Assembly (NCBI GenBank): GCA_018606645.1
Contig: JAGVRI010000002.1
Span: forward strand, 248,001 to 312,000
Source of the DNA: Chloroflexota bacterium
Lineage (GTDB): Bacteria; Chloroflexota; Anaerolineae; JAAYZQ01
DNA: 64,000 bases
Direction of reading: 5' to 3'
The notes beneath the pieces are model-generated. The model was not told the origin of the DNA, did not search any database, and worked only from the letters and a program-made list of their open reading frames with translations. A program made the translations under genes and the position numbers. This document shows positions 1 to 64,000 of the stretch, one piece after another. The stretch's first letter is position 1, and each line of letters begins with the position of its first letter.

Positions 1-149
1 AATTCGCGCAAGCGCTCCTCAACCTGGACCGGGCTTAGCCCGCGCAAGTCGGTCTGGAGCTTGACCAGGACCGCCTCCTCTGGCGTGGCGTGCCAGGGGA
101 TGGGCTGGCCGGGAATCTCGATCAGCTCAATGCGATTAAGGTTTTCCAT
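1..149 (-). CDS. Hypothetical protein, N-terminal part only (runs off window start)
   Basis: Read by eye: MENLNRIELIEIPGQPIPWHATPEEAVLVKLQTDLRGLSPVQVEERLRE..., open to the window edge. Confidence 0.4.
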   Translation of the reverse strand, partial: MENLNRIELIEIPGQPIPWHATPEEAVLVKLQTDLRGLSPVQVEERLRE

Positions 150-405
150 AGACAATCCCATGAGAGAAACAGGTGGTCAGCATAATTGGCCCATATGGAA
201 TGGCAAAGAATCTACCTGTGCCATCAATGGCCTGAATGATACGTTCTTCGCTCCAAACACCTTGTGACCAGCGCATCAAAGAGTCACTGCCACGCAAACG
301 ACGGGGATTGAGCAAAAAGTCGAGCCATTCAACAGCGGTCTGTCCGCGAAGCTCAAGTTCGACGTCTTGGGTGCCAACGGTGAGAAACTTCTCGAAAAGG
401 TGCAT
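136..405 (-). CDS. Hypothetical small protein (MHLFEKFLTVGTQDVELELRGQ...), probable cassette ORF
   Basis: ORF track; starts just beyond the attC-like site at 451-512 on the minus strand. Confidence 0.45.
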   Translation of the reverse strand: MHLFEKFLTVGTQDVELELRGQTAVEWLDFLLNPRRLRGSDSLMRWSQGVWSEERIIQAIDGTGRFFAIPYGPIMLTTCFSHGIVYGKP

Positions 406-450: not shown

Positions 451-512
451 GGCTAACGGCATCCGCTTCAGCCGCAGACGCGAAGCGTGTCGGCTGCAAG
501 TGGGGGTTGGGC
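451..512. other. attC-like recombination site A
   Basis: GGCTAAC(451-457)...GTTGGGC(506-512); inner arms CCGCTT-CAGCCG / CCACTTGCAGCCG (reverse complement of right arm) pair with an extrahelical base. Confidence 0.7.
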
Positions 513-544
513 AGCATTACATTATGCCATTCCTCGGTAATGCT

Positions 545-628
545 GCCCAACGATTTGCGCATAAGCCGCCCGCGAGCGAGGGAGCGAAGCGACCGAGTGA
601 AGCGGGTCGGCTTATGCGCGTGTTAGGC
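545..628. other. attC-like recombination site B
   Basis: GCCCAAC(545-551)...GTTAGGC(622-628); perfect 12-bp arms GCGCATAAGCCG(557-568)/CGGCTTATGCGC(608-619). Confidence 0.7.
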
Positions 629-710
629 CGCATTCCTCTTGCAAACTGAACATTTTTGAGCTGCAGAAGTCTTGCCCACCGAGAGCAATTCGGCAACTTG
701 ACCCGAATAC

Positions 711-3148
711 TTATCTTCTCACCAACGGCAGATAGATAGGGTGAAAGATGAGGGCGCGCCGATAGACTCCCGGGCTCATCAGGTCTGTTTGAGCCGCCTG
801 AGTCATATTGCTATAGGAGCCCGGAGTGACAATTCTGTACCCGCCAGCAGAACCCACGTACATGACTAATCGCTGCTGGCCGTTCACCCCCACATCATGT
901 CCAAATGCCAGGGAATATGCAGGCCCCTGCGAGAGTCCTTCTGCAAGCATGAGGGAATGGCCACCATCCAGACTCTGAAATAGTCCATCCCAGGTAGCGA
1001 TGTAGAAGACCCGTGAGCCAAGCGGTGAAAACACCATCTCCGCCACCGGGCCTCCATATACCGGGTTTCCATATTCATCGGTGAGCATCTCCCACGTCGC
1101 CCCGCCGTCCTGCGAAATGTTGATACCTTGACCATGGCTATGGACATAGATCACATTGCCATAGTCAGGGTGCACGGTCACCAGGCGGATGCCTCCGATG
1201 TTCTCAGGCGTCAAACGTTCCCAGGTTTCACCCCGATCCTGGCTACGGTACAACCCCGCATTGGTTGCCGCATACACCCGCTGAGGGTTGTGCGGATCAA
1301 AGAGAATACGCCAAAGCCGGCCTTCCACTACCTTGACAATTCGCCAACCTGCAGCAGCGTTGTCGCGGATGTAGATAACCCCTGTAGCGTTTTCCAGGTC
1401 TCCTGATGATATAAGCGCTCCAGCCAGAAGCCTGCCCGGTCGTTCCGGGTCGGGGGCGACCATGACACCATTCCCAATGGCGTCGGCAGGAGCACCTTCC
1501 GGACGGGGCAAGTACTCAATCTGGTACGTCGCCCCCCGGTCCGAACTGATGTACAAACAGGGTTCCACACAGATAGCCGGGAAATACACGATGTTAGGGG
1601 TAAAAGGGTCAATCACGATGGGACCTTCCCAGCCGATCCAGGGGGCAGGGATGTCCAGGGATTGCCAATTACGTCCCCCATCAATGGTTTTAATAAAATT
1701 CACACTCATCCCCAGCGGAGAAGCATAGGCCTCGTCGGGATTTTGTGGGTTAACGCCCAGGAAACCCAGCATCAGACCCGCCAAACCTTGATTGGATGCC
1801 CGCCAGGTCTGACCGCCGTCCTCGCTTTTGTATACCCCCCATCTGTAGCCGCATACACCGTCGTCCGCGCCGGGTCGTTTGGCGCGTCGGGGGCAGGGCT
1901 CAGGGCAAAATCCCAAACGTAGGGAATATCCTCCGGCATTGCTGGCAACCAACTCTGGCTGTTGTCGGTGGTAAAGTACCGATAGCGGCCTGCTGCTATC
2001 CAGATGATCCCTGGAATCGTCGGGTGAATGGTGATTGAATTCACCATCGCATCGGGATAAGGGAGATTGCCAATCACTTGAAAGGTAAGACCGCCATCCT
2101 GGCTGGAAAAAGCGTGCCCGTTTGTCGCTATATATATGTTGTGCTCGCCGAGACTGTTCGGGAACGGGTCAACGACGATGTGCCGGATGAAGTTTGATAC
2201 CGTTACCGGATCGGTCCAGGTGATACCGCCATCGGAACTGGCATAGAATTGCCCCTCGCGGCTGCCAAAGTAGATGCGGTCGGGATCGGCAGGGCTGAAA
2301 GCGACGCTGGTAACAGGAAGATCGTTCGGGTAGGGCCTCGTCCATTCCCCTGTCAGATAACTGTATTTGAACAACCCACCGCCATCGGTGCCGGTGTGTG
2401 CCCTGCCGCTCACCCCCAGATAGACGGCATGGGGTTCCAGCGGATTCCATGCAGGGTAAAAGTCATAAACACCCGTCCACGAGTCCACTTCCCCTGGAAC
2501 GAACCGTTGCCAGGTCAGGCCATCGTCGGCTGAGTGCATAAGGCCCTCGTTCGCCCCTAAGTACAAACGAGGCTCGCCGTTATAGTACTCGAAGACCAGT
2601 TCGGTCAGCATGGTGCCGAGATAGGCGGGTTGCCAGTGTTCGGCGGCATCGCTGCTAACGAACAGTCCCGTACCGCCAGCGGATGCATAAACCTTTGTAC
2701 TGTTTTGTGGGTCAATGAACACGGCTTCGGTGAACCCGCCGTAGGGGCCGTTTGTTTCCCAATCGTTGCCTTCCTGATATACCAGAATGGCATTTTCTTT
2801 CGCGCCCGACTGCCCATCCGGATTGATCACGGTCAGGGTATAACTGCCCGGCGACAGCCCCCAGGGTACCAGTGCGGTCAGTGTCTGAGTATCTACGAAC
2901 GTTACCTCCCGCAGAGGAACGGTTCCCAGCGTTAACGTCGGTGTGGGGACGAAATTGTCACCCGTGACGGTAATGTACATGTTGGTTGCATTAGGTAACT
3001 CGTTCGGACTGACTTCCAGAACGGTCGGCGGTGCAGCCGAGTAGGCAGATGAGCGCACAGCCCCCATGCTCAGGGTAGTGACTCCCAACATCACCCCGAG
3101 GATAGAAAGAAAGGTGATCACCTTCTGATGGATAGTAGTGTTTGACAT
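711..3148 (-). CDS. Secreted IPT/TIG + BNR/sortilin-type beta-propeller surface protein, split by one frameshift (ORFs 1772-3286 and 711-1952)
   Basis: Signal-peptide-like start at 3148 (MSNTTIHQKVITFLSILGVMLG...); IPT-like PPTVLEVSPNELPNATN; many S.DGG.TW repeats; both ORFs join at a G6 tract; C-term IFHPIYLPLVRR*. Confidence 0.75.
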
Positions 3149-3169
3149 GGGAAACCTCCTTGCCAAGCG

Positions 3170-3299
3170 GCCTAACGGCTCGCGCTTCAGCGGCGGCGTG
3201 ACGAGCAAGACGCCTTTGCTCACAACCCGCCCCAGCCTGCGCCAACACGCGGACCCGCAGCGGCGGAAGCCGCCGTCCGCCTGCAAGCGCTTGTTGGGC
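3170..3299. other. attC-like recombination site G (long, 130 bp)
   Basis: GCCTAAC(3170-3176)...GTTGGGC(3293-3299); arms GCGCTT-CAGCGG and GCGCTTGCAGGCGG (reverse complement of right arm). Confidence 0.6.
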
Positions 3300-3428
3300 G
3301 CACAAACCCGGCATGCAAAACGCCTTCGCCTTCACGCGCCCATGACCCCTGCGGGCAAAGCAACCTTGCCGCAGCCACACCAGCAGGCAAACGGCGCGTT
3401 TTCACCTGATAAAGTTCCATCCATTCGC

Positions 3429-3636
3429 GCCCAACTATTCAGAATACGGAATCCAGCCTTATTCCCAATTCAGTATCTTAGACGGATTCCACCTGGTTCC
3501 CCGAGGGAGTGGCTTTTACGGAGAACTTCCCCATCATATGCCTGACCAGTCTGAGTCAGAACATGTCCAACGCGACTCTCGATAAATACATGATAGCACA
3601 ACACCCGGATTCTGTCAAAGGAAAGGAAATCAGATG
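3429..3636 (+). repeat. Copy 1 of 205-bp leader repeat (candidate attI / integrase promoter relic)
   Basis: GCCCAACtATTCaGaATACGGAATCCA ... GATTCTGTCAAAGGAAAGGAAATCAGATGAGCC; matches copies at 57308 and 63488. Confidence 0.65.
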
Positions 3637-3819
3637 AGCCCGTAGTCTGCACCACCTCTTGTGCAGCGTGGCGGACGGACCGTCCGCCGCCCGCTGGATG
3701 ACCAGGGAGGTTAGAGACCAGGCCGAGGCACGGCCCGCCGGCCATACCCTTAACAAGCGTTGCCCAATCTGGTGGCGGGCCACCCTGCGGCGAGTCACCG
3801 GTCATCCTGCCGCCACAGG

Positions 3820-5085
3820 TCATGGCAGAGGAAAAATCACCGCATTATTGTCGCGTCTTGTCTCAGGGTAGGCCCCGTTCGCCTCCGGCGGGTTCACGGT
3901 AAAGGTCAGAACTCCTCCCCGGCTCCACAGGTACCCAATGCGGATCGCCGCCACCCCCAGGCCGTTCCCCCGGACGAGGGGGATGACGTCGGTCATCTTG
4001 CGGCCGGCCTGGTTCTCGATGCGGATCGGCACGTTGGCTGCGTCTCGAGTCCCCAGGTTGTGCACCGTCACGACAGCGATCCACGGTTGTGGGGTCTCGA
4101 TGTCATCCGCCGTGATGCTGAAATCATACGCTTCCGGCGGGCTGACGACCGCCGGGGGTGCCTCGGCTGGCAGTTCCACGTTAACGGTGATTAGGTTGTT
4201 GGTAAAATTGTCTTCCGGCAGGCTATCCTCCCATTGCCGGGGATTGACCTGTACCGTGAGGAGCTCACCCCGACGCAGGACGCGGCCTGCCTCGACATAG
4301 ACCTGGGCGGTGCCGCCGCAGGGTGGGATGGCAGGACTGTAGGCCAGACCGGACCACTGTTCCCCGCTGACCACGATGGGCACGTGGTATACTGGCTGGT
4401 TGCCCAGGTTATGCACTCGCACCCACACGCCCCTCTGTTCTGGATTGGGCAGGATATCTGCCGCTCCGACCTCCACATCCAACCGGCCCGGGCAGAGATC
4501 GCTCGGAGAAGCGTCAAAGGGCATTATCTTGATCGGGAGGAGCACGCTGTTATCATCCCGATCCTTTTCTGGCAGTGTGGGCATCCCAGATCGCCACGCT
4601 TCGGGCAGGAGGTTGACTCGCACCCAAAGGCGGTGATCCCCCCCGGCAAAAATCCAGTCCACCGGAACCGCTACCACCTCAGACCCCAAGGCAGGGACGG
4701 TGACGGTCAGCAGTTGGGTAAAGGGGGTGTAGCCAATTTGCTCCGGTTCGCCGGCGATATAGACCATGACCGGGACCCGGGGAGCCGAAATCGCCGCTCG
4801 ATTGTGGATGGTGACAGTCAGGGTAAACGGCACTCCGGCCTGGAGGGGGAGCGGGGTGATCGAGATATCGTCTTCCGTAAGAGCAAGGTCCACTGGCGGG
4901 CTGGAAGGTGTGGGCGAAGGGGTCGGTTCCAAGAAAAGGTCAGCCGGCGTGAACGGTGGTGCTGCATCCCCTGCCCGCTCTCCAGTTCGGCGGTCGACGC
5001 ACCCCTGTACCGTGACGAGCAGCGCCACTGCCAGGCAAAAGAAAAACCGGTTGATCACCTGTTTCGGTCTGGTATCCTCGTTCAT
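3820..5085 (-). CDS. CARDB-domain lipoprotein
   Basis: Lipobox-like ALLVTVQGC; repeated CARDB-type segments (VDLALTEDDISITP, YDFSITADDIETP). Confidence 0.7.
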   Translation of the reverse strand: MNEDTRPKQVINRFFFCLAVALLVTVQGCVDRRTGERAGDAAPPFTPADLFLEPTPSPTPSSPPVDLALTEDDISITPLPLQAGVPFTLTVTIHNRAAISAPRVPVMVYIAGEPEQIGYTPFTQLLTVTVPALGSEVVAVPVDWIFAGGDHRLWVRVNLLPEAWRSGMPTLPEKDRDDNSVLLPIKIMPFDASPSDLCPGRLDVEVGAADILPNPEQRGVWVRVHNLGNQPVYHVPIVVSGEQWSGLAYSPAIPPCGGTAQVYVEAGRVLRRGELLTVQVNPRQWEDSLPEDNFTNNLITVNVELPAEAPPAVVSPPEAYDFSITADDIETPQPWIAVVTVHNLGTRDAANVPIRIENQAGRKMTDVIPLVRGNGLGVAAIRIGYLWSRGGVLTFTVNPPEANGAYPETRRDNNAVIFPLP

Positions 5086-5272: not shown

Positions 5273-6454
5273 GTGATAAGGAGGGACAGTTCGTTGCGCA
5301 AGAAAATGCTCTTCGGATGGTTGGTGGGCCTGTTGGCCCTCACCATGTTGGCCTGCAACTTGTCAGAGATCAGCTCGTTCATGACTGCTACTGTTCCTGC
5401 GACGCCGACGCAGGGAGCGACGCCGTCTCCGGCGACGGAGACCCCTTCCCCGTTACCTCCCGCTCAAGCTGTTGCCACGGATGTAGAAGAACAGTTGATC
5501 GTAGAGGTCTATGCCCGGGTCAGTCCGGCGGTGGTCTGCATTACCGCCCGGGAACAGTTTGGCACCTGTATCGGCTCCGGGTTTGTGATCGACCGCGAAG
5601 GCCATGTGGTCACGAACAACCATGTGGCGGAGGCGGCCCCGGACCTTCTGGTGACGCTTGCCGATGAACGGACCGTTCCGGCGGACGTAATCGGCCGCGA
5701 CCCGGGCAGTGACCTGGCGGTGCTCAAAATCTCGGTTCCGGCCGAAGATCTGACCCCCGTCGAGCTGGGCGATTCGTCCACGCTCAGGGTTGGGCAGCGG
5801 GCCATTGCCATCGGAAACCCCTTTGGACTGGAGCGGACGATCACCACCGGTGTGATCAGTTCGGTAGGGCGGACTATCCCGCGAGAGGACAGCGATTTTC
5901 AACTGGCCCAGGTGATCCAGACGGATGCTGCCATCAATCCTGGCAATTCGGGAGGGCCTCTGCTGGACTCGCAAGGGCGGGTGATCGGGGTGAACACGGC
6001 GATTCGCAGTCTCACCGGGGTTAGCTCTGGGGTCGGTTTTGCCATCCCGGTTGACATTGTCAAGCGGGTGGTCCCCGAACTCATTGCCACGGGCCGGTAC
6101 CGTCATGCCTGGCTCGGAGTGCGGGGACGGACCATCACCCCGGAAATGGTCGAAGCGATGGACCTGCCGGTGGAGGTGGGGGCGTTGATCTTTGCCGTGG
6201 AACCAGGAGGACCGGCAGCCAAGGCCGGGCTGCGAGGCGGCGATCGGGAGGTGATGGTCGCCGGCATCCCCATGGTGGCGGGGGGCGATATTATTGTGGC
6301 GATTGGCGGCACGCCGGTAAAGCGGTTTGACGATGTGGTCAATTACCTGGCCATCCACACCAGTGTGGGCGATGTGGTTACCTTGACCGTGGTGCGGGGA
6401 ACGGAACAGATCGAGATAGACGTTACGCTGGAAGAACGTCCGGAGGGTCGCTAA
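5273..6454 (+). CDS. HtrA/DegP-family trypsin-like serine protease with PDZ domain (lipoprotein-like N-terminus)
   Basis: GSGFVIDREGHVVTNNHV, SDLAVLKI, INPGNSGGPLLDSQGRVIGVNTAI, C-terminal PDZ region. Confidence 0.9.
   Translation: MIRRDSSLRKKMLFGWLVGLLALTMLACNLSEISSFMTATVPATPTQGATPSPATETPSPLPPAQAVATDVEEQLIVEVYARVSPAVVCITAREQFGTCIGSGFVIDREGHVVTNNHVAEAAPDLLVTLADERTVPADVIGRDPGSDLAVLKISVPAEDLTPVELGDSSTLRVGQRAIAIGNPFGLERTITTGVISSVGRTIPREDSDFQLAQVIQTDAAINPGNSGGPLLDSQGRVIGVNTAIRSLTGVSSGVGFAIPVDIVKRVVPELIATGRYRHAWLGVRGRTITPEMVEAMDLPVEVGALIFAVEPGGPAAKAGLRGGDREVMVAGIPMVAGGDIIVAIGGTPVKRFDDVVNYLAIHTSVGDVVTLTVVRGTEQIEIDVTLEERPEGR

Positions 6455-56635: not shown

Positions 56636-56638
<3 letters not shown>
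56607..56638. repeat. Perfect 10-bp inverted repeat abutting attC-like site C
   Basis: GGTCAGACGC (56607-56616) / GCGTCTGACC (56629-56638). Confidence 0.8.
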
Positions 56639-56707
<69 letters not shown>

Positions 56708-57307: not shown

Positions 57308-57515
57308 CCCCAACAACTCAGTATGCGGAATCCACTTTTACTTCGGCGTCAGGAATTTCGAGGGATTCGGCTTGGCTCGCTTTAAGTCGCTTTTGCGCAG
57401 AACCTCCGTCGAACATCTCTGGTCCGGCGACTCCACTACGTGTCCGACACGAATCTCAACAATTCAATGATAGAGCAAAACCTGGGTTCTGTCAAATGAA
57501 AGGAAATCAGCCATG
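57308..57515 (+). repeat. Copy 2 of 205-bp leader repeat (candidate attI / integrase promoter relic)
   Basis: CCCCAACaACTCaGTATGCGGAATCCAC ... GTTCTGTCAAATGAAAGGAAATCAGCCATGAGCCC. Confidence 0.7.
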
Positions 57516-57678
57516 AGCCCATCCCCAAAAACTGCTCGACTAACTGCGCGATGCCCTGCGGGTGAAAGATCAGTTCTACCGCACCGGGTGGGCCTATATC
57601 AAGCGGATCACACGCTTCATCCTCTTCCACGGCAAACGCCAACCCGCTGAAATGGGCCGGCCCAAGGTCGTGACCTAG
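57513..57678 (+). pseudogene. Integron-integrase-like (tyrosine recombinase, N-terminal) remnant
   Basis: ATGAGC then +1 frame HPQKLLD*LRDALRVKDQFYRTGWAYIKRITRFILFHGKRQPAEMGRPKV; internal TAA and frame jump after ATGAGC. Confidence 0.7.
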
Positions 57679-62672: not shown

Positions 62673-62745
62673 ACCTAACGGCCCGCGCATCAGCCACAGG
62701 CCGCGAAGCGGCCGAAGGCCTATCGGCTGGATGCGCGTGTTGGGC
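62673..62745. other. attC-like recombination site D
   Basis: ACCTAAC (62673-62679)...GTTGGGC (62739-62745); arms CGCGCAT-CAGCC / CGCGCATCCAGCC with extrahelical base. Confidence 0.75.
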
Positions 62746-63487: not shown

Positions 63488-63692
63488 GCCCAACCATTCG
63501 GTATACGGAATCCACCTTTACTGCCAAGACAGCCTCTTGGATAGATTCTAACTAGAACCCCGAATCGCCAGTATCACGGAGAATCTCCATAACAGGCCTC
63601 ACTGGGGCAACTCAAGGTGTCTGGCATGAATCTCCACAATTACATTATAGATCAAAACCCGAGATCTGTCAAATGATAGGAAATCAGCCATG
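63488..63692 (+). repeat. Copy 3 of 205-bp leader repeat (candidate attI / integrase promoter relic)
   Basis: GCCCAACcATTCgGTATACGGAATCCACC ... GATCTGTCAAATGATAGGAAATCAGCCATGAGC. Confidence 0.7.
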
Positions 63693-63700
63693 AGCAATGA

Positions 63701-64000
<300 letters not shown>

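Follow-up and report, generated by a model that had tools for sequence, protein, structure and literature searches.

The window analysed here is a stretch of 64,000 nucleotides from a contig of a Chloroflexota bacterium. At its beginning, between a P-type ATPase gene and the genes for a putative lipoprotein (3820-5085) and an HtrA-like protease (5273-6454), an array of cassette-like units is located, in which a gene for a predicted secreted BNR/IPT protein is enclosed by attC sites. The array is preceded by a leader with remnants of an integrase gene (intI), and two further copies of this leader lie towards the end of the window. The features are as follows.

3646..3706, plus strand: remnant of the intI 3′ end (QRGG..VR.PLD), joined to the intI start by an internal deletion
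3634..3641, plus strand: first intI codons (ATGAGCCC), truncated
3491..3633, plus strand: remainder of the intI leader; Pint region containing a dyad that has decayed
3590..3618, minus strand: Pc, predicted cassette promoter TTGACA-17-TATCAT, directed into the array
3429..3490, minus strand: attI, with the core GTTGGGC (3435-3429) and two conserved half-repeats (ATTCAG.ATACGGAATCC and ATTCAGTATCTTAGACGGATTC)
3176..3434, minus strand: cassette 1, 259 bp, closed by attC G
3170..3299, minus strand: attC G, 130 nt
551..3175, minus strand: cassette 2, the BNR/IPT unit, 2,625 bp, with bounds set by the attC G and attC B core sites
711..3148, minus strand: frameshifted gene for a predicted secreted IPT/TIG and BNR (sortilin-like) repeat protein, with the RBS AAGGAGG and the C-terminal tail IYLPLVRR
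1835..1840, minus strand: run of six G (on the minus strand) at which the reading frame is lost
545..628, minus strand: attC B, 84 nt
457..550, minus strand: cassette 3, 94 bp, hardly more than attC A
451..512, minus strand: attC A, 62 nt
136..405, minus strand: ORF of a truncated cassette 4, extending into the beginning of the adjacent P-type ATPase gene (start codon 149, minus strand)
57308..57669, plus strand: leader copy 2 (C2_305k), attI and intI codons 1-46, then broken
56636..56707, minus strand: attC of the array of leader copy 2
63488..63760, plus strand: leader copy 3 (C2_311k), attI and the intI start fused to C-terminal codons, beside a gyrB-like start
62673..62745, minus strand: attC of the array of leader copy 3

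The feature order and coordinates proposed for the array in an earlier note were borne out, every feature listed there being found at its position. The note had placed attC G beside the BNR gene; the site itself stands, but it ends the separate 259-bp cassette 1, for which no convincing gene was found, between attI and the BNR cassette. The footprint 622-3293 had to be replaced by 3175..551 on the minus strand, as predicted for excision from G/TT cuts at the core sites. The GC content of the cassette is 0.56 compared to 0.61 for the window. For the ORF at 136..405, Pfam and NCBIfam searches gave no match. A perfect 15-bp inverted repeat (GTTGGGCAGCATTAC/GTAATGCTGCCCAAC) at 506-551 links the attC A core site to that of attC B over the 94-bp cassette.

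Due to the fact that a scan by regular expression and folding produced about 10 chance hits per 64 kb and was therefore too unspecific, a covariance model was needed for the analysis of the attC sites. This model (R1) was trained on 11 candidate attC sites, all located outside the unit described here and all from the same genome, including the attC sites of the arrays of leader copies 2 and 3, and was used to search the window with 60 kb flanks (124 kb) as well as the whole genome. attC A was matched with 56.4 bits (E 5e-11 in 124 kb, 1.6e-9 genome-wide), attC B with 54.3 bits (E 1.5e-10 and 5e-9, respectively) and attC G with 43.6 bits (E 6e-8 in 124 kb), in each case on the minus strand; with models not trained on attC G, this site reached 43.6 and 43.1 bits. 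The earlier note had suggested such a model as a check, with zero hits counting against it. All three sites were matched by an independent model in array orientation, which supports its claim of a cassette bounded by attC sites. Rfam at the gathering threshold gave zero matches anywhere in the window.

The attC sites end in RYYYAAC and GTTRRRY, and their orientation is fixed because a short spacer follows R″ and a longer one precedes R′. The R″/L″/L′/R′ structure is carried by attC B at the 3′ end of the cassette in array orientation. When folding as single-stranded DNA was compared with that of shuffled sequences, attC B folded far better (z −3.9) and attC A modestly better, while attC G was no better than the shuffles by folding energy alone; for this site the evidence comes from the covariance model and the position. 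In the whole genome (4.3 Mb), R1 gave 22 attC matches at E<=0.1, 20 of which lie beside one of the nine attI leaders detected by DNA similarity, on the side and strand expected. The remaining two lie near a contig end (C9:1.4 kb) and at C7:6.9 kb, where an attI-like remnant was found later. Such genomes commonly contain GC-rich inverted repeats, and together with the chance hits of the unspecific scan this could suggest that the sites are ordinary dispersed repeats of the REP or MITE kind, unrelated to recombination. However, the model matches are few, they cluster beside attI leaders in one orientation, and core sites, asymmetric spacers and intI remnants were all found; because of this clustering and orientation the dispersed-repeat reading is refuted for practical purposes. 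Moreover, attC sites of the same family adjoin intact intI genes in four relatives (L030, L036, L037 and L040).

The sequence starting at 3429 had been described as a leader repeat. It is indeed a repeat, but it extends to about 3640 and, judged from its sequence, is attI together with the Pc and Pint promoter region upstream of intI and the first intI codons, which the earlier note had not recognised. attI at 3429..3490 scored 67.8 bits with a sequence-only model (R3) that had this site in its training set. In L034 (G013), which belongs to another family of the class, the same attI sequence adjoins an intact intI on the side facing the array. There, the core and two half-repeats are followed by Pint with a dyad between its −35 and −10 regions, a reverse TTGACA-17-TATAAT and an ATG, and the gene downstream of this layout is intact and full-length with a 314-position IntI match. 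In better-preserved leader copies of the present genome the Pint dyad reads TACGGAG-AAC-CTCCGTA. The dyad (TACGGAGAACCTCCGTA or TACGGAAATTTTCCGTA) is located between the −35 and −10 regions of the intI promoter, for example in L017 near 9640 and at L034:90-115. A LexA box as the origin of the dyad was rejected, since the lexA gene of this genome has GAACATATGTTC upstream, a dyad of another type.

Among 12 leaders, the mean pairwise identity was 0.97 for the Pc −35 region, 0.86 for the Pc −10 region, 0.77 for the attI core and first repeat, and 0.57-0.61 elsewhere, including Pint. The most conserved part of the leaders is therefore Pc, in particular its −35 region. This pattern is consistent with the keeping of cassette expression after integrase loss; it could instead predate the integrase losses.

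Next to the leader, the intI start ATGAGCCC is directly followed by sequence that matches the last IntI codons, and intI was thus lost by an internal deletion. The segment 3646..3706 scored 49 against IntI C-termini, a value reached by 0 of 1000 shuffles (maximum 39), and its DNA can be aligned to the same intI remnant in C2_311k and C5_133k. The same type of junction between intI start and end is found at these two loci, with a different 5′ endpoint at all three places. Longer intI starts, which match IntI, are present in the leader copies C2_305k, C5 and C16; that of C16 comprises IntI codons 1-112 with stops and is the best intI piece in the assembly. Two intI remnants (C16:17178 and C3:160k) share their endpoint, which lies at a TAGGGGCGAAGC... 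sequence resembling a repeat elsewhere in the genome, and insertion of a small repeat element is a possible cause.

Counted over the whole genome, there are at least 25 attC sites, almost all of them oriented as expected beside an attI, and about 12 attI leaders. With the sequence-only attI model, 11 attI sites were found here and one or two in each of 13 others among 200 genomes of the class, a comparison that is biased, since attI sites are specific to their integrase and most of the model's training sites came from this genome; the attI-like remnant on C7 brings the number to 12. Integrons are common in the group, since attC-like sites are present in 90 of the 200 genomes and an IntI match above the curated cut-off was obtained in 18 of 60 relatives. 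Leaders apparently standing alone occur in other families as well: L049 (G013:C461) and L048 (G002:C222) each contain an attI leader next to which no intI was seen, L049 together with two weak attC matches on the expected strand. On C9 (90732-99607; L045:733-9609), an attI leader is followed by large ORFs (1264 and 942 aa) and one weak attC, for which a model trained without that site gave 24.9 bits. Judged by eye, these ORFs look like type III restriction-modification genes, and the 8.8-kb stretch may tentatively be regarded as one multi-gene cassette.

No intact intI was found in the assembly, which is about 91% complete, and at all leaders examined the gene is deleted or broken. If the part of the genome missing from the assembly encodes an intact IntI, this could still recombine the attI and attC sites of every platform in trans, and the array would be mobile to this day. 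Intact cores in attI and in most attC sites, and the intact intI carried by many genomes of the class, would fit such activity; nevertheless, given that the best remaining piece covers residues 1-112 with stops, that the gene is deleted or broken at every examined leader and that several attC sites have decayed cores (L043:11175 and L017:12308), present mobility is considered unlikely.

The coordinates 3148-711 given for the BNR gene were correct, but it is not a single open frame: two ORFs, 3148..1772 and 1952..711, overlap in different frames. The gene is probably broken by a frameshift at 1835-1840, or else a sequencing or assembly error is located there. Such decay does not disqualify the cassette, for which an intact CDS is not strictly defining. 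The predicted protein comprises a signal-peptide-like N-terminus, an IPT/TIG domain, which is also matched by the NCBIfam ‘choice-of-anchor Z’ repeat, BNR/sortilin-type repeats and the tail IYLPLVRR. C-terminal tails of the [Y/F/W]LPL type were counted in 6 of 413 ORFs, compared to 0.6 expected from shuffled tails. They occur in secreted or surface-type proteins (window:711, L017:12262, window:51068, L018:16321 and L081), two of which are cassette-encoded, and look like a C-terminal sorting or anchoring tail.

In chromosomal integrons the median CDS is 362 bp long (PMC5371416); the 2.4-kb gene is therefore large, and the earlier remark to this effect was fair. A first cassette of 2.4 kb, encoding a protein of 739 aa, is present in another array of the same genome. 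The best relatives of the BNR protein share 33-37% identity and are found in two genomes of the class, with weaker ones in others, and no attC was detected within the 1.5 kb searched around the relatives. Neither an empty site nor a second copy of the BNR cassette was seen in other genomes; of the genomes compared, only one other of the same family matches the flank, and its contig stops inside the flanking HtrA gene.

The gene could also be a native chromosomal gene that was enclosed by separate attC cassettes inserted at secondary sites on either side. Proteins of this kind are frequent in the class (matches in 29 of 150 genomes, this one included), and the C-terminal tail is common to other secreted proteins of this genome. 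However, the gene starts 27 nt past the core site and stops 82 nt before attC B, which is normal cassette spacing, and it has the orientation of its attC within a contiguous array beginning at attI. Enclosure of a native gene is accordingly regarded as very improbable.

The unit at 551..3175 is almost certainly a real gene cassette belonging to a sedentary chromosomal integron that has decayed. According to the proposed course of events, IntI from the adjacent intI would have captured circular cassettes at attI by recombination of the folded bottom strand of attC with attI. The BNR cassette would have entered by this route, and the small attC G cassette would later have displaced it one place downstream. 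The internal deletion would then have removed nearly all of the intI coding region and frozen the array. Pc in the leader still faces the array and could transcribe the remaining cassettes, with the BNR gene frameshifted in this assembly.

Integrons are usually described as occurring once or twice per genome, with one integrase. Of the components of a complete integron, the array has an attI beside an intI remnant and a predicted Pc directed into it, and an intact intI was not found. It resembles the sedentary chromosomal integron of the Xanthomonas type with inactivated intI (PMC12444791; survey PMC2426708), which likewise consists of attI, Pc, a cassette array and an intI pseudogene and is apparently frozen; in Xanthomonas, intI inactivation leaves stable arrays (PMC12444791). 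In contrast to that single locus, intI is gone or broken here at about a dozen separate platforms, and the cassettes reach 2.6 kb. With three attC sites at 451-3299 and no intact integrase nearby, the array also corresponds to a CALIN as defined in IntegronFinder (at least two attC without an adjacent integrase gene; PMC9024848), but attI, Pc and traces of both intI ends survive, so that the origin of the array is still visible. Reports on integrons around sul4 (PMC5732528, PMC12772301) link integron components with what is probably the same phylum, Chloroflexi being named in the text; their subject is a resistance gene, in contrast to the surface-protein cargo of the decayed array described here. 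Pseudogenes account for about a third of intI genes, and more than one intI is present in about a fifth of integron-bearing bacteria (PMC2426708) and more than one IntI in 22% of IntI-encoding genomes (PMC9024848). The cassette itself adds a new member to a known kind. The genome is an unusual variant, in that Pc and attI have been retained at a dozen platforms lacking an integrase.

About twelve attI-Pc platforms in a genome with no intact integrase suggest that integrons were gained repeatedly and that their integrases were then lost, likewise more than once. The large surface-protein cassette widens the size and type of cargo to be expected in this group. Possibly, though we hold it only tentatively, the leaders were kept under selection after the loss of every integrase, as fixed expression platforms for the captured cassettes. 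The genome offers a test of selection on the cassette promoter once mobility has been lost; if such selection were real, integrons would here have been turned into dispersed promoters with accessory genes.
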